Origin: Deltaproteobacteria bacterium
GTDB taxonomy: Bacteria > Bdellovibrionota_B > Oligoflexia > Oligoflexales > CAIYRB01
Assembly: GCA_016874735.1 (NCBI GenBank)
Contig: VGTI01000016.1
Span: 1 to 64,000 of the forward strand
Direction: 5' to 3'
Length of the DNA: 64,000 nt
The notes below the pieces were generated by a model. That model worked only from the letters and a program-made list of their open reading frames with translations, was not told the DNA's origin and did not search any database. Each line of letters opens with the position of its first letter. Positions within the stretch are counted from its first letter, which is position 1. Below, piece after piece: positions 4,143-61,391 of this stretch. The position numbers and the translations under genes are program-made.

Positions 4143-4265
4143 AGAATTCCTCCCCTGCGGCTTTTCGCCGCTTTGCGCATTCACGCAATGGACCTGCATG
4201 GATCCACGTGGCGTGTCCACTAGACGCATGCGCTAGGCTGATCCTGGGCGCATTCAGTGATGCCA

Positions 4266-4292
4266 TCATCGGCCGGTTGGGGAAAAACTTTA
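4266..4292 (-). promoter_or_regulatory. sigma-28 (FliA)-like promoter for the Ala-rich lipoprotein
   Basis: On the minus strand TAAAGTTT (4285-4292) is followed after 11 bases by GCCGATGA (4266-4273). The -35 equals the flagellar sigma-28 consensus and the -10 matches six of eight positions of GCCGATAA. It lies about 125 bases ahead of the start at 4142. Confidence 0.65.
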
Positions 4293-21248: not shown

Positions 21249-21267
21249 CTTTAGAAACTATCTAAAG
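21249..21267. promoter_or_regulatory. inverted repeat overlapping a sigma-28-like -35 box
   Basis: CTTTAGA-AACTA-TCTAAAG, perfect 7-base arms, overlaps the -35 element at 21263-21270. It could be an operator or could give sigma-28 -35 half-sites on both strands. Confidence 0.4.
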
Positions 21268-21290
21268 TTTTAATAAGAATATACCGATAA
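21263..21290 (+). promoter_or_regulatory. sigma-28-like promoter for the hydrolase lipoprotein
   Basis: TAAAGTTT (21263-21270), 12-base spacer, ACCGATAA (21283-21290), in AT-rich sequence 36 bases ahead of the start at 21326. Confidence 0.65.
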
Positions 21291-21325: not shown

Positions 21326-22252
21326 ATGTACAGATTCAGGCATAGACTTCGCTTTATTACGATTTCCGTAGGCCTGGCGGTAGTGGCAGCTTGCGGCTCG
21401 GACAAAGACAGCTCGCATGGTGCGCCAGTGACACCAGCCGCTCCCGAGCGTTCACCGGGCGACCAGAAAGTTCTGGAACCATCTATGGGACTACCTAGGG
21501 GCCCATCAGATCAGCAACCAGGAGCAGGCGACGCGCAGAACACGGGCCCAAATCAAGCAAATGCGCGTGGTTCACGCTTACTTGGCATTTTTGGTGGCTA
21601 CATGAGCTGCAGCGGTGATGCCAACTCCCCATTCAAAGACACTTGGATGCAGACCTATGTCACCGAGGTGCAGCAGAGTCTTAAAACAACTGGTTCGCCA
21701 GAGGTAAAATACATCATGAGCTGCTTCAAGTTTGACGTCGCTAAAGTGATTTTTGTGACGTCTGACAAACCTACTGAGGTGAGAGAGGATTCCATTGCTC
21801 AGCTCTTCAGCGCATTTGAGGCATCAGTTTATAACTCCCCCAATGCATCCGTGAGCATAGCTGGTCACTCCTACGGTGGTTGGTTAAGTCTATCGCTCAT
21901 CGATCAAGTAAAGACCAAATTCCCAGTCGATGCGCTCATCACACTCGACCCAATCAGCCGTGCTCAGTGCACCCCACCAGCTGTGCTGAACAGTATTCTG
22001 GATGGACAGCCCAATGCCAGTTGCACAAGGGCCCCAGCTGATTTTGACGCCACTAAACTTGCGGCAATAAAACAACGTGCCAAGACCTGGCTGAACATCT
22101 ACCAGACCGATGCAACGATTCTGCATTCCGGACAATTAACTGGAGCTACCAACGTTAAGCGTCGGTACACGCCAGGTGATCTAGCCGCTCACAGCCAAAT
22201 CCCTGGGGACCTCGAAGTGATGAAGCAAGTGATATCACTTTTGGCTCGTTGA
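21326..22252 (+). CDS. alpha/beta-hydrolase-like lipoprotein
   Basis: A 308-residue predicted lipoprotein (VAACGS lipobox), then a Pro/Gly-rich linker of about 60 residues. The mature domain contains VSIAGHSYGGWLSL, a nucleophile elbow of alpha/beta hydrolases (GxSxG with Ser in GHSYG), followed by DALITLDPIS with a possible acid residue, and LAAHSQIPGD near the C-terminus supplies a candidate His. It resembles lipase/esterase or thioesterase-type folds; the substrate is unknown. It is likely at the outer membrane or exported. It is convergent with the TldE-like gene (four bases between stops). Confidence 0.68.
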   Translation: MYRFRHRLRFITISVGLAVVAACGSDKDSSHGAPVTPAAPERSPGDQKVLEPSMGLPRGPSDQQPGAGDAQNTGPNQANARGSRLLGIFGGYMSCSGDANSPFKDTWMQTYVTEVQQSLKTTGSPEVKYIMSCFKFDVAKVIFVTSDKPTEVREDSIAQLFSAFEASVYNSPNASVSIAGHSYGGWLSLSLIDQVKTKFPVDALITLDPISRAQCTPPAVLNSILDGQPNASCTRAPADFDATKLAAIKQRAKTWLNIYQTDATILHSGQLTGATNVKRRYTPGDLAAHSQIPGDLEVMKQVISLLAR

Positions 22253-27174: not shown

Positions 27175-27639
27175 ATGAAATGTTCACCTACCCTAATCCT
27201 GTTAGCCTTCCCCCTACTAATTAACGCCTGCGGCAGTCTCGCGATGGCGCCATCGGTCACGAAAAGCGAAGACCAGAAGACGTTAACCATCGTCGGTGAC
27301 GAAGCCGAACTTTTCATCTCCGCCCTATTTCAGTCCGGTGTTAGAGATCCGAGCGGTCGCCTTGGCGCGCTTAAGTTGCAAGCTGAGGTGGTCAGCTGTT
27401 CAGCGCCGGTAGTTCCCGCCCCAATTCCGAGCTGTACGCTCATGCTTCAGGGTGAGCTGAAAGTGGTACCGACCACACCAGCCGCAACCCTTTACCAGGT
27501 GCTCCGCGCACATGGGGCAAGCCGGCCTACCGATTTGCTCGGCGTCAATCTAGTAGGGGCGTCTGATATCGCTTGTGAACGCAACACCACCGTCAGCGGT
27601 GTTAGCCGCTGCACGATGAGTGTCGGTGCTAGCGATTAG
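27175..27639 (+). CDS. lipoprotein of unknown function
   Basis: A 154-residue predicted lipoprotein: hydrophobic signal then INAC as lipid-attachment site. The mature part has two Cys-containing segments (VVSCSAPVVPAPIPSC and CERNTTVSGVSRC) that could form disulfides, and is mostly beta-type by composition. No family recognised. AAGGAG precedes the ATG by eight bases. Its stop overlaps the stop of the convergent gene by two bases, leaving no space for a terminator. Confidence 0.65.
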   Translation: MKCSPTLILLAFPLLINACGSLAMAPSVTKSEDQKTLTIVGDEAELFISALFQSGVRDPSGRLGALKLQAEVVSCSAPVVPAPIPSCTLMLQGELKVVPTTPAATLYQVLRAHGASRPTDLLGVNLVGASDIACERNTTVSGVSRCTMSVGASD

Positions 27640-28985
27640 TTGAAGTACGGAGCCAATTCGCCGAGGATCCTTAGCCCCGCCTGCATACGGTAATCGTAGT
27701 TTACGTAGTTACCGTTTTGCGGGTAGCCGTGTACCGGACTAGCGGTCGTTGGACAGTCTTTGGTCTGTCCTCCACCGCGCGAGACGCCTCCGAGTACGTG
27801 GAATACGTCGGTAATGACGCCACCGTTGATCGCCCATGAGCTGCGTTTGGACCGGCCGCCGATTGACTGCGCCGCATATAAATAGGCCTCGATCAGGTTA
27901 AACCCGCTTGCGCTATCGAGCGCACCCGTATCGCAGTTGACAGCATTCTCGTACAAGGCTGCGTAGCCAGGCTTACCACCGGGGAACCAGCCGTAGAGAT
28001 TTTCGATGCCAAGCGCTGCCCGCCTTTGTGACGGTGGTGTCAGAGCGTTGTCGTAAATGCCGGAATTCAAGTCAGCGATCAGGATGGATTTATCGGTCGC
28101 AATGCCGAGAGCGTCACCGGTTTTCGCCTCGACCAGAGCTTGGCCTTTCGCCGCCGCCTGAGCGGGGTTAGCAGGGAACGGGAATACTCCCTTGGCAGCC
28201 GAAGTCAGGTTGGCCGGTATGTATACATTGCCCGTGGTATAAATCGTGCCGACGCCCTGGTAGACACCTTTGATCACTAGCTCGCCTTGGACCATGACAC
28301 TACCGTCAATCTTAATCGGCGCGGCTTTAGTGCCAATGAGAACCAAATTGCCTGTGTGAATCCCATTAACCGTTACGGCTTTGCCAGCCGCGTCGACGCC
28401 GCTAATTGAGCCCTTCATGCGCAACGTTGCACCGTTAAAGTCAATCTTTGGGAAGGCCGGCCTACCAGTTATCGGATCGTTCGGGACTTTGTTGCCCGTG
28501 TAGTTCTGCTTGACTCCTTCTGCTACGGTGATGACGTATTTTTTTCCATCCGGTGTCATGTCAGTCCATGATTTCGCTGCATACCACCCTCCCGATACGC
28601 GTTCGCCAGATAGGGGGACGTGACCAGAGGACCAGTCAAGGACCTCTGCCGTTGACGCGACATCACCGTTTATATGGGTGTGGCACATGCCACACTTGAG
28701 ATCGTTGACCAAGAGGGCAAATCGCGGTGCCTTAACCGCTGATCCGTCGGCAAAGAATCCGTCCGTGCCGCCGCCGTCAGGTGCAATTGCCTTCGAAGCA
28801 TCAGCGAGATTGTCGGTTGCGATCGATTTCACAGGTGTTACCGTATCCGTTGTCTGCACAAGCGGCGCAGCCTTCTGGCTTCCCGTTGATGAGTCAAAAT
28901 TACTCGACGAGCACCCGACTGCCGCTATCGCTAGCGTGTTCACAAGTTGCATCCCGAGGCTTTTGAGGTACAGACCTTGGTTCAT
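27636..28985 (-). CDS. lipoprotein with CxxCH motif and bactofilin-like beta region
   Basis: A 449-residue predicted lipoprotein (AAVGC). Residues 98-102 are CGMCH, a c-type heme-binding motif. Further on, GNLVLIGT...KIDGSVMVQGELVIKGV...GTIYTTGNVYIP is a regular repeated beta-strand region like the right-handed beta-helix of polymer-forming (bactofilin-type) proteins. The rest has many Gly/Ser/Tyr loops. The combination suggests an exported structural protein that may carry one heme; I know no named family with it. ATG 28985 is preceded by AAAGGG. A weak sigma-28-like site lies at 29034-29061. Confidence 0.62.
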   Translation of the reverse strand: MNQGLYLKSLGMQLVNTLAIAAVGCSSSNFDSSTGSQKAAPLVQTTDTVTPVKSIATDNLADASKAIAPDGGGTDGFFADGSAVKAPRFALLVNDLKCGMCHTHINGDVASTAEVLDWSSGHVPLSGERVSGGWYAAKSWTDMTPDGKKYVITVAEGVKQNYTGNKVPNDPITGRPAFPKIDFNGATLRMKGSISGVDAAGKAVTVNGIHTGNLVLIGTKAAPIKIDGSVMVQGELVIKGVYQGVGTIYTTGNVYIPANLTSAAKGVFPFPANPAQAAAKGQALVEAKTGDALGIATDKSILIADLNSGIYDNALTPPSQRRAALGIENLYGWFPGGKPGYAALYENAVNCDTGALDSASGFNLIEAYLYAAQSIGGRSKRSSWAINGGVITDVFHVLGGVSRGGGQTKDCPTTASPVHGYPQNGNYVNYDYRMQAGLRILGELAPYFN

Positions 28986-29033
28986 GGGGGAACCCTTTCG
29001 TGTCAGTAGTACCTCTAGCGGTAGCATACGTCC

Positions 29034-29061
29034 GTGTCGGTATTCCGACGTGCGGACTTGA
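29034..29061 (-). promoter_or_regulatory. weak sigma-28-like promoter candidate
   Basis: Minus-strand TCAAGTCC (29054-29061), 12-base spacer, ACCGACAC (29034-29041). Spacing and CCGA core agree with the stronger sites in this window, but both boxes have several mismatches. Confidence 0.3.
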
Positions 29062-29207
29062 GAAAAAAGCAAAGATTCGCGCAACTATTTGACTTTACCA
29101 ACTAAAAAATCACGGCGCCACAGCGCAATTACGCCACTTCGCTGAGTCACTTTCGACGTTTCGGGTTGTTTACCTGAAAAGCACAGAAGCCAGCCGTTCC
29201 TTCTGGG

Positions 29208-30539
29208 TTAACTAACCATCCGATCCAAAATTCGGGTTAGTTCTCCGCACATGTAAAAAGGTACCGAGAGGATTCCGTCATGGAATGACAATGGATGTTG
29301 TGAGATGCGGATCGCAAATGCAGCATTCTTCTCGCGGATGAACAATCGGGCTGACCTCAAGCTGCCAGTACTCCCAGCCTTAACTTCCATGGGCATAATT
29401 TTGTCATGATGCGTTATTAGGTAATCCACCTCCGCCTCGGAGCCCTTGGCTTCCCGATGCCAGTAATGCAGGCTTGGACTTGTATCGGCTGGTGTATTTG
29501 CCAACAGCTCTTGTCCAACAAATTGTTCGGCAAGCGCACCTTCGTTAACAAAAAGCGCATCGACAATTGATTTAGGACCAAGGTCGATCCCCAACATGTT
29601 TAGCATGATGCCTATATCCAGAAGCTGAACTTTGAACACACCGTCTCTTTCTCCTGCTGCTAACGGTGTGCCGTTGGCATGAGTAGCCCGAATCAAACGC
29701 ACTAATCCTGATTTTTCGAGATCCAGTAGTGGCTGTTTAAAATCTCGAGCTCGTGCATCTGAGTCAACATGTGAGAATTTAAATGGTCTTCCTACCAAAC
29801 GAGGTACGGCTCTGAGTATTGTTTGTAATTTGCGATAGTCATAGCGCTTGCCATACTTAACAAAATCAGCAACGTAACCGAGAGATAGCCGCGACTGCAC
29901 AATTTTTGCTTCTAAGTAGCTTTTGCTCTCACGAAAGGTATCCACTACCTCGGGTAATCCGCCGATGACAAAATACTCTCGCACAAGTTCTAGCAGCCGA
30001 TGATGCACTGCCTCAGAAACCGGCACATCTGGCGTCGCTTTACTTATACATTCGACCAGACCGTCCTCGGCGAGAGCGAGAAGAAATTCGCGAAATGACA
30101 TGGGATGCATCCACGCGAAACCTACGCGCCCTACCGGGAACGATCGAATTTTTTCATCATCTAAGGCAAACTCTAGCAATGAGCCTGCGGCTATGACCTC
30201 GAGGCCAGGCCGTTGTTCTTTGAACGCACGAAGCGCTAAAATAGCCTCCGGTGACTCCTGAATCTCATCGATGAATAGCAATGACTGGCCGTCAATAAGC
30301 CGCGTCTTGAGTAATGCCTCTAACTCGCGACTCATCGTAATCGCGTTTAAAGAGGAGAAGCACGCCTTCATGGATGGTGCTAATTCGAGATTGATCTCAG
30401 CCAGATGAGGGAATGAGATCATCCCATATTGCCGGATGCTGTGGCTTTTGCCGGTTTGACGGGCACCACGAACGATTAACGGCGTCTGTTTGGACCGTTT
30501 GCTGCGGCTAGTTAAAAAATCCTGGAATTGTCGGTACAT
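29208..30539 (-). CDS. AAA (AAA_14) + DUF4143 ATPase
   Basis: A 443-residue protein of the common AAA_14/DUF4143 type. Walker A is GARQTGKS, Walker B LLFIDEIQE, followed by the AAGSLLEF sensor region, and the C-terminal half carries DUF4143 with EVDYLITH...MPMEVKAG, a PD-(D/E)XK-like motif (D, E-x-K). Such proteins are widespread and often in accessory regions; their function is unproven. ATG 30539 fits the family N-terminus (MYRQFQDFL). It is a lone leftward gene, possibly horizontally acquired. Confidence 0.88.
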   Translation of the reverse strand: MYRQFQDFLTSRSKRSKQTPLIVRGARQTGKSHSIRQYGMISFPHLAEINLELAPSMKACFSSLNAITMSRELEALLKTRLIDGQSLLFIDEIQESPEAILALRAFKEQRPGLEVIAAGSLLEFALDDEKIRSFPVGRVGFAWMHPMSFREFLLALAEDGLVECISKATPDVPVSEAVHHRLLELVREYFVIGGLPEVVDTFRESKSYLEAKIVQSRLSLGYVADFVKYGKRYDYRKLQTILRAVPRLVGRPFKFSHVDSDARARDFKQPLLDLEKSGLVRLIRATHANGTPLAAGERDGVFKVQLLDIGIMLNMLGIDLGPKSIVDALFVNEGALAEQFVGQELLANTPADTSPSLHYWHREAKGSEAEVDYLITHHDKIMPMEVKAGSTGSLRSARLFIREKNAAFAIRISQHPLSFHDGILSVPFYMCGELTRILDRMVS

Positions 30540-30704
30540 AAGCGTCGCTCTGATTCTTACCGTATAAATAAGCCATACAAGGCTATTATAGCCGTCTTTT
30601 TTAACCATGTCATGGTCGATATACCGATCTGACCGGTTCCCGAGGCTAGATGCCGAACAGATTCCCGAACAGATTCCCAGCGGGTCGTCGTCCTAGATCC
30701 GGCC

Positions 30705-32192
30705 TCAACGACGACGCATAGCCCGCATATCAGGTGCCCCGTGCACGGCACTTGTATCGACATTCATCATTTGCAATAGACCTGCGAATAAGTCCTTTTC
30801 TTCAGTCTTCCGCCCTGTATCGGGACGCCCGGAAGCGGGATCGAAACCGTAAGTTAGTGCCGACTTAGCATCGATGCCGCCAAGAACTTTATTGCCGTTG
30901 GCTAGCGGGGACATAACTAAAACACCATTGTTTAGATGGTGACCCGAGGCAAAAACATCGGCTCCGCCTGGTCTGATTTTACTGCGGCCAAAATCGGTCG
31001 CAAAGTAAACAACTGAACGGTCCCAGTAACTCCCGCCACGAGGATATTCTTTTGCCTTCAAAAACCCGATCATACGATCCGTTATCGACAGCATCCGACT
31101 CCACATAAGCGCCTGGACACCGCGGTGGCTGGCGTGCGAGAAGTCAAAGCCTATGGGCGGGTTTCGCGTCTCCGAAAGGCCACCTTTACTAACTACCGTG
31201 AAAGATGGACCAAGGGTCACGGTGCAGGTCGTACCTTGCGTTATGGCCATACATGCGAGGATCGCCTGGGCCTCGTAGGGATCCCACGTGTAATCCGGGA
31301 AAATCCGCATCAGCTCCACGGCATTGCTGTTGCTCGGTGAGATATCCAGGCCTGCCGCCAGTTTGCCGCGTTCAAAGAGATCGCGCGTATCACTACGCGC
31401 ACGTACCCAGTCACGCATGACGGGCGACTCTTTAAAGGTCCGGTAAAATGCCGAGGGCGCATCGAGCATTTGATCGCGGATCTCACGTGCGACGGCCATC
31501 ACCTCTTCTGAAGGAGCCTCATCAATGCCATAGGCACTAGAAAGTCCCTTAGACCAAGTTGCTGGCTCGTTGACCAATGTGCCCTTAGCGTAGCCGGGCA
31601 AACTGCCGTCGATACCGTGTTCGACGTATCCACCTTGTCCTAGAAGCAAATTAGCTAAAGGCAAGCCTTTGCCGTAAGTAGCAGCGATCACCTCTTGCAG
31701 GGTGCGCCCAGACCAGGCCTCATTGCCGGTGATGGCTCGTTTTTGCGCTGTGGTATGGGTCACCGAGGTGCTCTCAGTGGTCACTACCATCATGTCTTGT
31801 TTATGTTTGCGTAAAAATGCCTCTTGAGCACCCTGAACTTTGAGATTACCGAGTACCGCAATAGTTCCTTGATAGTTCACGGCCCGCAGTGGTGAGTCGG
31901 GTAAACTGATGAGCTGAGACGTCTCGTAGCAGTTGAGTGCATTGGCATCACCACCTGCCGCGCGCACCTCGTTACTTGAGAGCGCCATAAATGAGTCAAT
32001 AATGGAGGCACCACCCGATCCGTGCATCACGATCAGAAATCGCCGATCGTCACTTGATGTCTCCGCGGCAAGGAGCCGACGTGGCGACCAGAGTAGGGGG
32101 CCCATAGCAAGCAAGAGTCCTTGAGTCACAACATCGCGGCGGTTGAGACCCTGCTGCTTACGACTTGCTGCACTTCTTTTATGGCGACTCAT
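30705..32192 (-). CDS. Tat-exported DUF1501 family protein
   Basis: A 495-residue protein exported by the Tat pathway: LNRRDVVTQGLLLAMG holds the twin Arg and hydrophobic core. The mature part carries DUF1501 features (MHGSGGASIIDSFMAL; a metal-type HHLNNGVLVMSP; DFGRSKIRPGGADVF) of the alkaline-phosphatase/sulfatase-like superfamily. DUF1501 proteins are typical of Planctomycetes and related groups, usually encoded beside a heme-containing partner, as here. No substrate is known. ATG 32192 follows GGGGG. It is the last gene of a three-gene unit after the cytochrome-like protein and a lipoprotein. Confidence 0.85.
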   Translation of the reverse strand: MSRHKRSAASRKQQGLNRRDVVTQGLLLAMGPLLWSPRRLLAAETSSDDRRFLIVMHGSGGASIIDSFMALSSNEVRAAGGDANALNCYETSQLISLPDSPLRAVNYQGTIAVLGNLKVQGAQEAFLRKHKQDMMVVTTESTSVTHTTAQKRAITGNEAWSGRTLQEVIAATYGKGLPLANLLLGQGGYVEHGIDGSLPGYAKGTLVNEPATWSKGLSSAYGIDEAPSEEVMAVAREIRDQMLDAPSAFYRTFKESPVMRDWVRARSDTRDLFERGKLAAGLDISPSNSNAVELMRIFPDYTWDPYEAQAILACMAITQGTTCTVTLGPSFTVVSKGGLSETRNPPIGFDFSHASHRGVQALMWSRMLSITDRMIGFLKAKEYPRGGSYWDRSVVYFATDFGRSKIRPGGADVFASGHHLNNGVLVMSPLANGNKVLGGIDAKSALTYGFDPASGRPDTGRKTEEKDLFAGLLQMMNVDTSAVHGAPDMRAMRRR

Positions 32193-32205
32193 AATTACCC
32201 CCGTC

Positions 32206-32871
32206 CTAATAAAGGACTGACTCCAGCTGCGTGGCAACCATCCAGCACGCGGACTTTGCCCAAGTTTTGCCGACCTCGTTGCCAGACACCATCGACCCCA
32301 CAGAATCTAGAAGCTTTTCATGCCCGGCGTAATCGCCATCAGTAGGATCACGCTGTAGAAAATTACGGTACAGACGCTGAACAGCGTTTTTATGGGCCTC
32401 GGTAAAATTGGTGCCACCCGATGGGATACCGGCAAAAATTAGCGGGCTACTACCACCAAAATCCAAATCGACGCGCCGCGCGCAGGCCTGCAGAGCTACG
32501 CGTTCGATAGCAATCGGGCTCGTTGGCACCGGTTTTTCGGCTCGCTCGTACAGCATGAGATTGGCGTCGACGCCACCGAGGACGATGTTGTAATGCGTCA
32601 GACAGTCTTTTCCCGATTCGATGCACAACTGATTCGGAGGCAACTGCAAGGCACGCGCATAGTCATTGCGTAGGAGGTAGATTTTTTTAAACCGCACGTT
32701 GGCACGGTGGGAGAGTCCCGGCTCACCATCATCGCCCGACCGTATATCGGCCGACTTCGGTTTTCGAGGAGCGCTCGGCCCGCCGCGACCTTTCTTCTTA
32801 AACCATGAGCAGCCGTCCATAAAAACGAGCATGCCGATGATTACAAGTGCTTTTGCCTTATGGTGCGCCAT
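32206..32871 (-). CDS. lipoprotein of the DUF1501/cytochrome cluster
   Basis: A 221-residue predicted lipoprotein: a hydrophobic signal with MDGC as candidate lipid site. The mature part has no recognised domain. GAGGG six bases upstream favours ATG 32871 over ATG 32877. It overlaps the end of the cytochrome-like gene by 14 bases and lies 13 bases ahead of the DUF1501 gene, so it is coupled to both. It is probably a partner or tether of the exported module. Confidence 0.68.
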   Translation of the reverse strand: MAHHKAKALVIIGMLVFMDGCSWFKKKGRGGPSAPRKPKSADIRSGDDGEPGLSHRANVRFKKIYLLRNDYARALQLPPNQLCIESGKDCLTHYNIVLGGVDANLMLYERAEKPVPTSPIAIERVALQACARRVDLDFGGSSPLIFAGIPSGGTNFTEAHKNAVQRLYRNFLQRDPTDGDYAGHEKLLDSVGSMVSGNEVGKTWAKSACWMVATQLESVLY

Positions 32872-34483
32872 AAGCATCCCTCGTCACTAAATCGAGTAAT
32901 AAGTTGCGCACACGGTAATTATGCTTGGTCTTTAGGTTCTCGACTAGCGACTCAAATTCGTCTTCTGTTTCAGCATTTGGTTCTTCGCCAATCAAATAGC
33001 GCCAATAATCAAGGACGATTTGGCGGGCGTATTCTTTTGAGTTTGCAGCCACACGCCCCCACTCCGGTAGGGAGTTAACAGCTTGGCCTAGTATGAAACC
33101 GGACGAGGGTGTTGCCGCCAGATTGGGCTCAGTTGTTGCATTCATTTTGGCGAGAATCCGCATGCGGTTCTCGTTGTACTCACCAAGCAGCAATAAGTCG
33201 CCACCGACCAGAGAACTGCCGCTCTGCACGATCCCAGCTAGAAACGGAGGGAGCATGACGCTACCGCCAACGGCACCACCAACAAAACCGCCGGCTGTGT
33301 TGATGTCGCGACCAAGAATTTGAAACGTCAGCCCATTGTATTTGGTAAATGGGTAGGTGAGAGCATCCAGCGAACGGTGACAGGCGGCACAGGCAGGGCG
33401 CGTGACGTCTTTGTTGTCATAGTCGACTAGGCGAAAGTTACTACCTGGTTCGACTAGACCTTGGTTTTTGCTGATATCAAGACCGAGGTAAACACGGTAA
33501 AAATGAGCTGCAGTAGACCTCGGGATCGAGGCAAACATGGTGAGCCCATTTTGCGCCCAGGATGTGCTGAGTACACCAGCTCGTTTGTCCTTCGGCACAA
33601 ACTGCTGCATATTGTTGTAAAAACTGCCTGTCACCGCGAGGACACCAGGCTTCTTACCATTGAGCGCAACGTTCTCGGTGGGTGTGTAGGCGGTAGTGCC
33701 TCCATCACGGCGGGTGACATAGTAGTTTGCGGTTAGTACACCACGCGCGTCCGCATCATCGATGTGGTGATAGATATAAAGGTTATAGTCGTCATAGTAG
33801 TCAGCCAGTGGAATCTCGCCGCCATCGTCACCTGCCTTGACCACGGTTAAGGGACGTACCTTGACGCCAGCCATATCCCAAAGTATGCCGCCCTTGCCGC
33901 GCCAGAAGTTTGACTTCATGCAGGAGTCAACGGTTGCGGCAATGCGCTGCTCTTTCTCGGTTAGAGGTAGTTCTTTAAATTCTTGGTATGCCTCGAAGGT
34001 CGGTGAGTTGCCGCAGAAATCTGCATTCACCTTCTTAAAGGCGTAGTCAGGATCGTAACCACATAGATTGTAGCCACTCCCTGCACCCCGAGCATCACAG
34101 TTACGCTCGTCTTTGGCTCGCGTATTTTGCCCTTGGTCGGCCACACCGGGTTCGGTCCCAGAGGCAAATTCTTCCAGATTGACGATGCCGTCGCCGTCAC
34201 AGTCCTGATTCATGACTGCTTTAGCGGCAGCTTCTATAGTCCGGGAGCGAGCAAGCGCATCTTTAAGACAACGCCCGTAAGGATTTAGAGACGGGGCTCC
34301 GGTATGACACGTCGTACACGAGGCCTGACCGGTGCCACACCCAGGAGCATCAGGTGCAGCCGCACAGAGGCTGCGTGCATTGGCAGCGTTGCCAAACGCC
34401 GGCTGACTGCCACCAAGCCACAGGCTGAGGCATGAGATAGCAACAATAGCTCCCCTGAGAGCCAATGCCCACCGAACTGCCAT
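32858..34483 (-). CDS. exported diheme cytochrome-like protein (first gene of DUF1501 cluster)
   Basis: A 541-residue protein with a signal peptide and two CxxCH heme-attachment motifs: CTTCH at 56-60 and CAACH at 365-369, the latter in CAACHRSLDALTYPF, which resembles DUF1588/PSCyt-type domains. Residues 94-106 (DCDGDGIVNLEEF) look like a calcium-binding EF-hand/thrombospondin-type loop. It should act in the periplasm or at the surface. Its promoter at 34533-34560 is the best sigma-28 match in the window. Paired exported heme and DUF1501 proteins suggest a complex of unknown function. Confidence 0.78.
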   Translation of the reverse strand: MAVRWALALRGAIVAISCLSLWLGGSQPAFGNAANARSLCAAAPDAPGCGTGQASCTTCHTGAPSLNPYGRCLKDALARSRTIEAAAKAVMNQDCDGDGIVNLEEFASGTEPGVADQGQNTRAKDERNCDARGAGSGYNLCGYDPDYAFKKVNADFCGNSPTFEAYQEFKELPLTEKEQRIAATVDSCMKSNFWRGKGGILWDMAGVKVRPLTVVKAGDDGGEIPLADYYDDYNLYIYHHIDDADARGVLTANYYVTRRDGGTTAYTPTENVALNGKKPGVLAVTGSFYNNMQQFVPKDKRAGVLSTSWAQNGLTMFASIPRSTAAHFYRVYLGLDISKNQGLVEPGSNFRLVDYDNKDVTRPACAACHRSLDALTYPFTKYNGLTFQILGRDINTAGGFVGGAVGGSVMLPPFLAGIVQSGSSLVGGDLLLLGEYNENRMRILAKMNATTEPNLAATPSSGFILGQAVNSLPEWGRVAANSKEYARQIVLDYWRYLIGEEPNAETEDEFESLVENLKTKHNYRVRNLLLDLVTRDAYGAP

Positions 34484-34532
34484 GATGTTTAATCCTCTAA
34501 AGTGGTAGGAATCTCCCTACCAACGAGGCGGC

Positions 34533-34560
34533 TTATCGGCATTATGGTCACTAAACTTTA
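34533..34560 (-). promoter_or_regulatory. near-perfect sigma-28 promoter for the cytochrome/DUF1501 cluster
   Basis: Minus-strand TAAAGTTT (34553-34560), 12-base spacer, GCCGATAA (34533-34540). Both boxes equal the textbook sigma-28 consensus; the spacer is 12 where the E. coli consensus is 11. The start codon is about 45 bases further on. Confidence 0.75.
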
Positions 34561-56642: not shown

Positions 56643-58040
56643 TTAAAGACTCAAGAAGCGGCTTGCGCCCTGGAAGTCGCTTAGCCCCATGTCGAGATGT
56701 TTATTAAACGTAAAGAACATGTCGGCCACATCAAATTGAGACATATCGAGACTTTGTCCCGGCGTCATGAAATTTCGTCCGCCGCCCACGATCATCGGCG
56801 CACCCTGCGAAAGATGCATATAGTGCATCCCGTCGCGTACGCCAAACCCGGCAAGAACAATGGAGTTGTCGAGGATGACGCTACCACTACTATCCTTGGC
56901 AGCTTTCAGCTTTTGTATGAGGTCAGCCACTACTGAAAAGTAAAAGCGATCACGCGTGATACAACGCGGTATGCCATCGGGCGTCGCATGTGAGAAATCG
57001 CCACCGCTGAAATGACCAAAATGCGACACTAAGTGATTGTTCCATCCGGCAATATCAGCACCCTGATATACAAGCTCGCGCGGCGCTGCTGGCAATGACC
57101 GAGACCCAGTTTCGACATCCAACATAACGCTTACTGACCGCACGAGATCACAAGCGAATGCTATTGTGATGAGATCGTTAAACATCCGCATGCGAGCCAG
57201 GTATAGGCTGCCATCTCCCGCTGCGGCTCCGGAATCTAAATTGGCCTGATTCGTCGGTGGACGACAAGTGGCGCTGCTATTTCCCGATGACGCGCCGCCG
57301 CCTGATGAGCCAGGGTCGCGGTACTTTAGCTCTAGTTCCCGAAGTCCTGCCAAAAAATCGTCTAGTCTCTGCTGGTCACTACGCCCTAGTTTTGCCCTCA
57401 ATTGACTGAGATCTGTGAGACTACTATCGATAATACTGGCTTCTAAATTTTGGGTAACCGGCTGTGGCGAAGGCGCCACCGGGACTGCAACCTGTCCCAC
57501 GAGCTGCCTATAGAGGTCGCCAGGATTGGAAATGCCACGGACCATACGACCATTTAGATAGGAAATGCCGTTGTTCTGATATCTGTCGCCCTGATCTGCG
57601 GTGTTCCCCTGAATGACCAGGGCTGCCTTGCCGCTCTTGCCGGCATACTGATGCTCAAAGGAATTCTGCGGGCCTAAGTTTTGGCCACAGGTAAGAAACG
57701 CCACTGCTTCGCCGACGTGCTGGCCGTTGGCATTTGCCAGATTATCTGCCGCCGTAGTCTTGATGTGTTTCAACACTGAGAAGTCACCCACAATTGCATC
57801 GAAAGGCGCCAAGGCTGGTGGCAGGTTATTCCGGTTCATAACCCCTGTCGCTGGGTACCACGTTGGAGTATCGCCGCGATTATAGGTTCCATTAGGAATG
57901 TAAAAGGCGACAAAGCGACGCGGATCCCGCGCTGTTTGAGCCGTAGCCCGATTGGCAACCCAACTCGGAAATAACGGCAAAAGAAAGGTAGTGCCACTAC
58001 TACTAATAAAGGTACGGCGACTAAGCTTGAAGTTACTCAT
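56643..58040 (-). CDS. Tat-exported DUF1552 family protein
   Basis: A 465-residue Tat-exported protein: SRRTFISSSG with a hydrophobic core near the N-terminus. The mature part has DUF1552 features (IPNGTYNRGDTPTWYP, NLANANGQHVGEAVAFLT, FEHQYAGKSGKAAL) and a Ser/Gly-rich loop in the middle. DUF1552 proteins occur with DUF1592/DUF1588 cytochrome-like partners, as here, with unknown function. ATG 58040 overlaps the upstream stop by four bases and has GGAG. Confidence 0.86.
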   Translation of the reverse strand: MSNFKLSRRTFISSSGTTFLLPLFPSWVANRATAQTARDPRRFVAFYIPNGTYNRGDTPTWYPATGVMNRNNLPPALAPFDAIVGDFSVLKHIKTTAADNLANANGQHVGEAVAFLTCGQNLGPQNSFEHQYAGKSGKAALVIQGNTADQGDRYQNNGISYLNGRMVRGISNPGDLYRQLVGQVAVPVAPSPQPVTQNLEASIIDSSLTDLSQLRAKLGRSDQQRLDDFLAGLRELELKYRDPGSSGGGASSGNSSATCRPPTNQANLDSGAAAGDGSLYLARMRMFNDLITIAFACDLVRSVSVMLDVETGSRSLPAAPRELVYQGADIAGWNNHLVSHFGHFSGGDFSHATPDGIPRCITRDRFYFSVVADLIQKLKAAKDSSGSVILDNSIVLAGFGVRDGMHYMHLSQGAPMIVGGGRNFMTPGQSLDMSQFDVADMFFTFNKHLDMGLSDFQGASRFLSL

Positions 58041-59773
58041 GGCGCATCTCCACTTTGCCAACGAAATTGCCTTGTCAGTACAGTGGCCTTTAGTAGGTCC
58101 GAAAACTTACCCTGAACACCCCATTTCCGAACGCCCATTTCTGTCGCTACGCATTCGTCATCTTTTGAGACTGGAAGACGTTTCACGGCTAGTGCCATTA
58201 CTTTTTTAGCCAGACAGCTCTGAACGATTTGCTGGCCCGAAAGTCGATCGAGTAATTCGCGCGTATCTTTGAACTCGGTGGAGGCATCCAATTTTCCAGA
58301 GGAGTCAATCACTGCACCTCCTAAATGGGTGTACGTTGACCTCCACTTACCCGTCGCGTCGAACGACTCAAATCCAAGTCCGAGAGGATCCAAGCGCTCG
58401 TGACAGGATGCACAGCTGGGGCTATTAGTATGTACTGCCAAGAGTTCCCGAGGTGTAGCATTAGGCGGTAGTTTACTGGTATCCAGAGGTGGAATACCGG
58501 GCGGCGGTGGCGGGATATCCTGACATAGCCATTTCAGAGCAAGGTCTTTGCCACGCTTTACTGGCCGAGTCTCCGTCGTCGAACCGGCTGTTGCCAGTAG
58601 AAATGAGGCATGGCCTAAGACACCACGACGCGAGTGATTAGTTAGATCTAAAAGCTGGAATTTCGCACGATCTGATTCGCTCCACGGAATACCATAGTGC
58701 TCCGCCAAGATGCCATTGGCGTATGTATATTTTGCTGCTACTAAATCGGTAATACTTTTGTCCTGAATCACAAGGTCGGCGACAAATCGCCAGCTTTCCT
58801 CGAGCATTGCTCTTTTTAGTGCATCATTGACGCCAGGAGTCACCAAGTTCTCAAGCACATCCAAGCCGATCCAGTCATTAACAATGGTGCGTACTAGATA
58901 GCTAGCACGGTCGTTTTTTAACATGCGATCAACTTGGTTGTTCAGCTTAACCTCGTCACTGAGCTGGTCCTGTGCCGCCAGATCAAATAACTCCTGATCA
59001 GGCATCGTGCCCCACAGGAAGTAAGAAAGACGCGAAGCAATCTGATAATTGTCGAGCTCAGCTGCCTCACCCACTGGCGTCGGGGCCTCTGTGGGGACGC
59101 TGACAAAAATGAAATGAGGGCTGATCAAAAGAGCGACCAAAAGACTCCTTAACCCTTGGTCGAAACTTGGCGCCTGTTGCATAATACGCAGGAGTCTGGC
59201 CTTTTCACTGTCAGCTCCGACGGAAGTCAGGGGACGCCGCCACGCTCTCAGACCAAAATCGCTGATGATGGACTCAAGGCATGACACCTCAACCTCGGAT
59301 TTACCGACAGCGCAGGGAGCGATCTTACGGAATGCGGCATCTTGGTCGTTCTTGCGTGCAATAACGGCATCGGCCAAGGTTGTCGCTGCCGTCCAGTACT
59401 TCGTCACGGTCAATGGCGACAGGGAAACATGAGCCGTGTCACTGGCAAAACCGCTAGGACCTTTAGGTGTGGCCTCAAATACAGCAAGCTTACTTGCTTT
59501 GTCTGTGATGAAGAGCAGATCAGAAACGGTCTGGTCGTACTCCTCATGGGACATGAGTCTCAGCGCTGCACGCCCCGGTGCGTATCCGGCCCCACAAGAG
59601 AGCCCCAGCGACCGTGTACCAGACTGGGCGTCGCTCTCCCCTGGCAGCGACCCGATGGGTTTCACGACTTTGGCACTGCGCACATCTTTGACCTTAGCTG
59701 ATTTCGCCCCACAGCCACTGACTTCCATACTCAGCAACAAGCACCCAATCGCGACTGCGGTTTTGTGATCCAT
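58037..59773 (-). CDS. DUF1592/DUF1588 family heme-type lipoprotein
   Basis: A 578-residue predicted lipoprotein (VSGC). It carries the multidomain set seen in Planctomycete PSCyt-type proteins: DUF1587 (LMSHEEYDQTVSDLLF), DUF1595 (RAWRRPLT), DUF1592 (NYQIASRLSYFLWGTMPDQELF), DUF1588 (SRRGVLGHASFLLATAGSTTETRPVKRGKD with CASCH at 454-458) and DUF1585 at the end. CxxCH suggests heme c binding. The DUF1552 gene is translationally coupled. A sigma-28-like promoter is at 59823-59849. Confidence 0.85.
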   Translation of the reverse strand: MDHKTAVAIGCLLLSMEVSGCGAKSAKVKDVRSAKVVKPIGSLPGESDAQSGTRSLGLSCGAGYAPGRAALRLMSHEEYDQTVSDLLFITDKASKLAVFEATPKGPSGFASDTAHVSLSPLTVTKYWTAATTLADAVIARKNDQDAAFRKIAPCAVGKSEVEVSCLESIISDFGLRAWRRPLTSVGADSEKARLLRIMQQAPSFDQGLRSLLVALLISPHFIFVSVPTEAPTPVGEAAELDNYQIASRLSYFLWGTMPDQELFDLAAQDQLSDEVKLNNQVDRMLKNDRASYLVRTIVNDWIGLDVLENLVTPGVNDALKRAMLEESWRFVADLVIQDKSITDLVAAKYTYANGILAEHYGIPWSESDRAKFQLLDLTNHSRRGVLGHASFLLATAGSTTETRPVKRGKDLALKWLCQDIPPPPPGIPPLDTSKLPPNATPRELLAVHTNSPSCASCHERLDPLGLGFESFDATGKWRSTYTHLGGAVIDSSGKLDASTEFKDTRELLDRLSGQQIVQSCLAKKVMALAVKRLPVSKDDECVATEMGVRKWGVQGKFSDLLKATVLTRQFRWQSGDAP

Positions 59774-59822: not shown

Positions 59823-59849
59823 TCATCGGTAACGACTGCAATAACTTTA
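59823..59849 (-). promoter_or_regulatory. sigma-28-like promoter for DUF1592/DUF1552
   Basis: Minus-strand TAAAGTTA (59842-59849), 11-base spacer, ACCGATGA (59823-59830), 49 bases ahead of the DUF1592 start. Confidence 0.6.
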
Positions 59850-59994: not shown

Positions 59995-60022
59995 TTAAGT
60001 TTTGCCTGAAGTGTGCCGATAC
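59995..60022 (+). promoter_or_regulatory. sigma-28-like promoter for the Kelch lipoprotein
   Basis: TTAAGTTT (59995-60002), 12-base spacer, GCCGATAC (60015-60022), 91 bases ahead of the ATG at 60114. Confidence 0.6.
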
Positions 60023-60113: not shown

Positions 60114-61391
60114 ATGAAATTTCTGGAACAGAAGTTTACCGTCCTGCGCATCACGGCACTGGCCGTTGGGATCCTACCAACCTACGGCTGCCGTACCACG
60201 GCTAAAGTGGGCGAATCTAAATTGGCGGCCATCAGCTCGGCCATAGGTGCAGACGCTGTTAGACCGACGGCGATGCCTGTTTCCCGTTTAGAGGCAACCC
60301 CAAGGACTCTGCACACCAGCATCTGGACCGGCGATGCCATGATGGTTTGGGGTGGTGTCGTCGATCGTAAAATTGAGAATAGCGAAACTGCGGGCGGAAT
60401 TTTCTATCCGGATACAGATCACTGGTACCCGATCAAGAGAACCGAGCGTGGATCACGCTACTACCATAGTAGTGTTTGGAATGGAGAAATGATGATCGCC
60501 TGGGGTGGCGTGGATGCTGCAACGCGCGATCCCGTTGCAACCGGAGTAAGGATTACCCCTACTGAGGACCATTGGCGCGAAGTCGCCACGAAGGGAGCCC
60601 CCTCTGCGCGCTCTGGTCACTCTGCCATCTGGACGGGCACGGAGATGCTCGTTTGGGGGGGGGCAAATTCTGACAGCGTCTATCTAGCCGACGGTGGATT
60701 TTACGACCCGATGGAAGATTCGTGGTCAGCTGTTAAAACTGAAGGCGCACCTAGCGCTCGCGCCTATCACACGGCCATTTGGACCGGCAAGAAAATGCTG
60801 GTATGGGGCGGAGGCGATCAGGACCAATGGCTAAACTCAGGTGGCATCTTTAGCCCTGACACAAAGACTTGGACTGCAACTGCCGAGGACGGTGCTCCCA
60901 CTCCTAGAGTTAGTCACACCGCCGTTTGGACGGGCAGCAAAATGATAATCTGGGGTGGTCGTGCCAGTGACGATCAACTTCTCGGAGACGGCGCTATATT
61001 CGACCCTGAGACTAATAGTTGGGAAGCGCTCCCCAAAGCCCCAGCCGCTTTGCGTAGCCGTGAGCTACACACCGCTGTTTGGACTGGCGAAGAAATGGTG
61101 ATTTGGGGTGGTCGTCACGACGAGAGGATTCTCGGTGACGGCGCTGCTTACAATCCCAAGACCCAAGCCTGGCGCCTCATCAAAGGCAACGGTCGCATGA
61201 CAGCAAGGTGCGAGCATACCGCCGTTTGGACGGGCAAGGAGATGCTCATTTTCGGCGGCAAAGGACCGGACAATAAGTTGATTACCAACACAAAGCACCT
61301 AGGATTTCGACTGCCAATCGCCATATCTCCAGAATCGCAGTTGCAGTTTAAGAAATCAGAGGAACGGTTGGTCCATAGTGATCTAGAATAA
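60114..61391 (+). CDS. seven-repeat Kelch beta-propeller lipoprotein
   Basis: A 425-residue exported protein; signal peptide with TYGC as possible lipid site. Seven repeats of about 50 residues each start with HT(A/S)(V/I)WTGxxMxxWGG and end in a PxTxxW motif, so a complete seven-bladed Kelch/galactose-oxidase-type propeller is likely. No catalytic Cys-Tyr pair is apparent. Such propellers bind proteins or sugars. GGAGG lies just before ATG. It is divergent from the DUF1592 gene. Confidence 0.8.
   Translation: MKFLEQKFTVLRITALAVGILPTYGCRTTAKVGESKLAAISSAIGADAVRPTAMPVSRLEATPRTLHTSIWTGDAMMVWGGVVDRKIENSETAGGIFYPDTDHWYPIKRTERGSRYYHSSVWNGEMMIAWGGVDAATRDPVATGVRITPTEDHWREVATKGAPSARSGHSAIWTGTEMLVWGGANSDSVYLADGGFYDPMEDSWSAVKTEGAPSARAYHTAIWTGKKMLVWGGGDQDQWLNSGGIFSPDTKTWTATAEDGAPTPRVSHTAVWTGSKMIIWGGRASDDQLLGDGAIFDPETNSWEALPKAPAALRSRELHTAVWTGEEMVIWGGRHDERILGDGAAYNPKTQAWRLIKGNGRMTARCEHTAVWTGKEMLIFGGKGPDNKLITNTKHLGFRLPIAISPESQLQFKKSEERLVHSDLE

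Follow-up and report, generated by a model that had tools for sequence, protein, structure and literature searches.

What system is encoded by three tightly packed genes that lie behind a sigma-28-type promoter in a member of the Oligoflexales? The genes, here called A, B and C, are found in a 64,000-nucleotide stretch of a Deltaproteobacteria bacterium genome (assembly GCA_016874735.1, contig VGTI01000016.1), referred to below as the window. Our best explanation, for which we put the chances at about even, is that A-B-C is a split and re-partnered variant of the planctomycete-type PSCyt/PSD systems with DUF1501 or DUF1552 partners, and that it forms one FliA-transcribed operon encoding an envelope complex. 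This three-part version of a widespread protein pair is previously undescribed.

A conserved three-gene module

30705-32192, minus strand: gene C, twin-arginine (RR) signal, DUF1501-like
32206-32871, minus strand: gene B, lipoprotein with lipobox FMDGC (in the context FMDGC-SWFKKK), start at the second ATG
32858-34483, minus strand: gene A, 541 amino acids, Sec-type signal, two CxxCH motifs
34533-34560, minus strand: sigma-28-type promoter TAAAGTTT-N12-GCCGATAA, 49 bases 5' of the gene A start

Taking the second ATG (32871), with GAGGG upstream of it, as the start of B, genes A and B share 14 bases; the ATG at 32877 could serve instead. B and C are separated by 13 bases. An earlier reading of this DNA, made from the letters alone (the sequence-only reading), had given the same coordinates, leftward packing, overlap and gap, and these are correct. 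Likewise, its description of A as an exported protein with two CxxCH motifs and an EF-hand-like loop, and of B as a lipoprotein, agrees with the positions of both motifs and the loop in A and with the lipobox of B.

The same reading had treated the three genes as one module, and their distribution confirms it. We searched 56 related genomes with the proteins and inspected the DNA around the matches. All 16 of the other Oligoflexales clusters carry A-B-C in this order, with one A and one C broken. Some related genomes carry two or three copies of the module, which is single-copy in this genome. The B profile gave strong matches in the 56 genomes only beside A and C. A wider scan of genome contigs, with C as the query, yielded 45 loci from several phyla. 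All three genes are present in 40 of them, and contig ends cut three of the other five. Some of the complete loci are the Oligoflexales clusters already counted; the others belong to records bearing the names Caulobacteraceae/Phenylobacterium, Polyangiaceae, Myxococcales, Bryobacteraceae and others, the Caulobacteraceae ones being metagenome assemblies. Over 38 modules the pairwise distances of A, B and C are correlated (rho 0.74-0.89), a correlation that would follow from linkage alone as well. Beside the module no fourth gene recurs once spurious antisense frames and close relatives are set aside, and the module thus looks self-contained. A-B-C is a genuine conserved three-gene module.

In one Bryobacteraceae record (L139, 5590-7014) the reading frame of A's N-terminal heme domain continues directly into that of C. 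A deletion or an assembly error is the likely cause, and this locus was not used as evidence of an A-C fusion.

The predicted diheme protein and its DUF1501-like partner

The CxxCH motifs of A are CTTCH (residues 56-60) and CAACH (residues 365-369). The first motif and an EF-hand/TSP3-like loop, D-x-D-x-D-G-x-x-N-x-x-E (residues 94-105), make up the N-terminal part, which is followed by diverged PSD4-PSCyt3-PSD2 domains (DUF1592/1588/1585). Pfam searches of 16 family members of A matched PSCyt3/DUF1588 in 14 and PSD2/DUF1585 in 10; A of the window itself lies below the curated cut-offs (18.9 vs 27 bits for PSCyt3, 14.6 vs 25.8 bits for PSD2). Comparison with hhalign against canonical PSD4 proteins aligned residues 234-541, the PSD4-PSCyt3-PSD2 part, with a probability of 98 and an E-value of 2.5e-13. 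Across 43 homologues there is no change in either CxxCH motif, in the three Asp and the Glu of the loop or in four further cysteines; Met316, which could be an axial ligand to the second heme, is kept in 41. The genome also contains cytochrome c assembly genes. A is a predicted c-type cytochrome, with covalent heme expected from the invariant CxxCH motifs and from export. A matches the GEGP motif-containing diheme protein (NF041762) in the CxxCH and the D-x-D-x-D-G loop region after it (residues 55-120, E 1.2e-4), but scores only 21.5 against that family's cut-off of 300, the N-terminal domain alone being in common. No relative of A among solved structures was found by sequence.

For C, the sequence-only reading had proposed a Tat-exported DUF1501 protein. 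The twin-arginine translocation (Tat) part stands: the RR pair is invariant in 43 of 43 homologues, TAT_signal matches 4 of 16 family members and the genome carries a TatC gene. The DUF1501 assignment holds only at the level of the family profile, where 8 of 16 members matched (best 2.3e-4), and C of the window gave no match to DUF1501 (PF07394, cut-off 27 bits) at E <= 1. The 43 homologues, which span several phyla, all keep Asp66, His146, Asp350, His353 and His418. Sequence searches found no solved-structure relative of C; the best Foldseek matches of its AlphaFold model (predicted local distance difference test score, pLDDT, 81.6) belong to the alkaline-phosphatase superfamily (sulfatases, phosphonate hydrolases, LtaS). 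C appears, weakly, to be DUF1501-like, with a predicted alkaline-phosphatase-superfamily fold. Assignment of C to DUF1552 was rejected, as HXXSHH (PF07586) matched none of the 16 C members.

Taken as one envelope redox-hydrolase complex, the three proteins would divide the work. B would fix the complex to the outer membrane. C would bind metal through its conserved Asp and His residues and act on an ester or sugar-type substrate, and the two covalent hemes of A would hand the electrons of the coupled oxidation to the respiratory chain. The calcium-type loop of A may stabilise the N-terminal domain.

The strongest competitor, which we consider unlikely, keeps the complex and removes the hydrolysis: C would be a catalytically dead scaffold of alkaline-phosphatase fold, and A would carry electrons, or sense redox state or oxygen, at the cell surface. 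C has no sulfatase C-x-P-S-R motif in its sequence, DUF1501 has no known activity, and A resembles a diheme electron carrier in which Met316 could serve as axial ligand, all in keeping with such a role. Against it, the five invariant Asp and His residues of C suggest that a metal site has been retained.

Gene B and the unsplit protein pairs

The redox-hydrolase complex proposed here would derive from a known type of protein pair, and this genome encodes unsplit counterparts:

56643-58061: DUF1552 gene, adjoining the canonical PSD4 lipoprotein gene
58037-59773: canonical PSD3-PSD5-PSD4-PSCyt3-PSD2 lipoprotein gene, in the same window
L055, 2986-7714: fused pair of this genome, a 1057-amino-acid PSD5/PSCyt3/PSD2 diheme protein with a DUF1501-type partner

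The canonical unsplit pair (56643-59773) lies about 22 kb from the operon. Canonical PSD4 proteins (DUF1587/1595/1592/1588/1585) were gathered from related genomes for comparison, and their partner is DUF1552 in 11 of 11 cases (the window copy and ten others). They share with the module the heme-motif region CAxCHxxLDPLxxxFxxY with PSD2 after it, a partner with an RR signal, a lipoprotein anchor and adjacent genes. Unlike them, the module has the protein split into A and B, an added N-terminal heme/EF-hand-like domain in A, no detected PSD3, and a DUF1501-like partner instead of DUF1552. The sequence-only reading had mentioned neither the split relation of A and B, nor that C is of a partner type otherwise not seen here with PSCyt3, nor the canonical pair in the same window.

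Gene B itself has no Pfam match in the window copy, and a PSD5/DUF1595 match was obtained in 2 of 16 B family members (best 2.4e-4). With hhalign, B landed exactly on the PSD5 of canonical proteins and on no other part of them (E 0.0015, probability 17 percent). An alignment of 43 B sequences against PSD5 gave an E-value of 1.2e-4 and a score of 41, compared with a maximum of 21 among 30 shuffled alignments. These comparisons suggest a weak but specific correspondence between the C-terminal segment of B and the PSD5 part of the canonical lipoprotein. With A matching PSD4-PSCyt3-PSD2 and B resembling PSD5, the module would have the heme part and the lipid-anchored PSD5 part on separate chains. 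The lipoprotein start is near-identical in B and a canonical PSD4 protein (GCSWFKKKGRGGP / GCQTWKKKGRGGP), with a DNA match of 11 bases; this shared start is suggestive only. The four cysteines of B are invariant over the 43 homologues and, like the four further cysteines of A, fit exported, disulfide-bonded proteins.

B could instead be an unrelated lipoprotein recruited to the operon, resembling PSD5 by chance. The missing Pfam match of the window copy, the few family members that matched PSD5 and the low single-profile probability all agree with that view. We nevertheless find it improbable, because the match falls exactly on PSD5, its score is above those of the shuffled alignments, and canonical PSD4 proteins are themselves lipoproteins with PSD5 in their N-terminal part.

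Related systems share other features of the module. PSCyt2 proteins pair with DUF1501. DUF1501 proteins paired with PSCyt2-PSD1 or with DUF1800 are, like C, Tat-exported partners encoded by an adjacent gene; unlike those systems, the module has a cytochrome of PSCyt3/PSD2 type. PSCyt2 and PSCyt3 genes have each been reported to adjoin a different uncharacterised gene family, and carbohydrate metabolism was suggested from gene context (PMC5615132). A redox function has been mentioned for a PSD1/PSC2 protein (PMC2754498), and DUF1501-DUF1800 operons have been noted (PMC5122149). The fused L055 pair is an unsplit counterpart of the module, with two hemes, PSD5, PSCyt3, PSD2 and a DUF1501-type partner; unlike the module it is a single 1057-residue chain of distant sequence (E 9e-6). 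No sigma-28 site was found upstream of L055 in this genome; the copy of the fused pair in the congener G004 (L056) has one of 24.4 bits. An anti-phage defence role was set aside, since PADLOC gave no match.

Sigma-28 sites and lipoprotein genes

The operon promoter reads in full TAAAGTTT-agtgaccataat-GCCGATAA, both boxes being exact. The pattern TAAA-N14-17-GCCGATAA occurs twice in the window, compared with 0.02 matches expected from shuffles, and 45 times genome-wide, compared with one match for the reversed pattern. Scored with a matrix derived from the other sigma-28-type sites, the operon promoter is the top site of the window at 30.2 bits (maximum of the reversed-window control, 12.4 bits), which bears out the sequence-only reading on its exact boxes and its rank. 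The spacer of 12 bases is the commonest spacing in this genome; the E. coli sigma-28 consensus has a spacer of 11. A full-length FliA is encoded in the genome (286.7 bits, cut-off 189.6).

In each of the four orthologous operons of the genus, namely that of this genome and those of the three congeners with the module (G002, G004 and G005), 15-16 of the 16 promoter positions are conserved. The site reads TAAAGTTT-N12-GCCGATAC in G004 and TCAAGTTT-N12-GCCGATAA in G002 and G005. A genome from another family of the same order (G008) has a weaker site, TAAAGTTA-N11-GACGATGA. With a consensus promoter, upstream conservation and an encoded FliA, the operon is a predicted member of the sigma-28 (FliA) regulon; a chance promoter is ruled out by the genome counts, the shuffles and the conservation. 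At A-B-C modules outside the order Oligoflexales no convincing sigma-28 site was found, so this regulation is not part of the general function of the module. Judged by sequence, the operon promoter is real but a local trait.

What do such sites precede in this genus? After the operon promoter, the next best sites of the window by the matrix are the following:

21263-21290, plus strand: sigma-28-type site, 27.5 bits, before a lipoprotein gene starting at 21326
4266-4292, minus strand: sigma-28-type site, 23.0 bits, before a lipoprotein gene starting at 4229
59995-60022, plus strand: sigma-28-type site, 21.2 bits, before a lipoprotein gene starting at 60114
59823-59849, minus strand: sigma-28-type site, 18.6 bits, before the canonical PSD4 lipoprotein gene starting at 59773

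The G004 counterpart of the canonical pair has a matching sigma-28-like site of 20.1 bits, compared with the 18.6 bits in the window. Across this genome a strict lipobox rule places 23 of 36 exact sites before lipoprotein genes, and inspection by eye adds more; the same rule gives 12 of 20 sites in each of two congeners. In the control, 9 of 44 open reading frames of the window carry a lipobox (Fisher p about 9e-5 and 0.003), a small set that itself contains a few genes with such sites. The lipoproteins behind these sites are unrelated proteins. Two sigma-28-preceded lipoproteins (L063 and L070) have C-terminal CxxCH domains that are alike (38 percent identity). Of the eight flagellin genes, just one is preceded by a convincing sigma-28 site. 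The lipoprotein bias and the flagellin count together mean that a sigma-28 site alone does not tie the operon to motility. The sequence-only reading had linked the module to the motile state; that link is only partly supported and does not hold as it was put. The lipoprotein bias of these sites may prove of wider significance than the operon. If sigma-28 mainly runs surface lipoproteins here, this would change what a sigma-28 promoter says about genes in this lineage.

Such a bias invites the view that the module belongs to a FliA-run cell-surface or attachment/predation programme of the genus, whose sigma-28 regulon is mainly surface lipoproteins, and is no metabolic enzyme. In three congeners exact sigma-28 sites stand mostly before unrelated lipoprotein genes, and some of these lipoproteins carry lectin, hydrolase-like or CAP-like domains. 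We regard this as a poor bet, since modules from Alphaproteobacteria, Myxococcota and Acidobacteria have no such sigma-28 site, and the biochemical role of the module is thus not specific to a surface programme.

A more far-reaching reading, to which we give rather less than even odds, is an undescribed three-protein envelope redox complex that arose when a planctomycete-type cytochrome system was split and given a new partner, and that stands here under a sigma-28 turned largely into a surface-lipoprotein sigma factor and not a dedicated flagellar one. On our best explanation, the complex would in this genus be made alongside the surface lipoprotein set when FliA is active. Several results weigh against that explanation. 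Single comparisons tie B to PSD5 only weakly (E 0.0015), the structure model of A is poor (pLDDT 62.7) and too poor for a fold search, the Foldseek template modelling (TM) scores of C are low (0.28-0.35), and modules outside the order lack the promoter. In addition, no known activity for any member of these families was found in open-access papers, so that the redox-hydrolase step is one that we infer; the sequence-only reading had also named no described function, and the finding of none is weak evidence of absence.

Many environmental bacteria carry PSCyt/PSD genes with DUF1501 or DUF1552 partners in numerous copies. Compared with those large multi-copy proteins, a compact module that is single-copy in this genome, has its heme, anchor and enzyme-like parts on separate proteins and lies behind a recognisable promoter offers biochemists and geneticists an easier entry.

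Two further genes lie downstream of the operon. A lipoprotein with one CxxCH, encoded on the same strand at 27636-29084, gave no Pfam or NCBIfam match. Directly downstream, 29208-30608 encodes an AAA_14/DUF4143 ATPase of a common stand-alone family.

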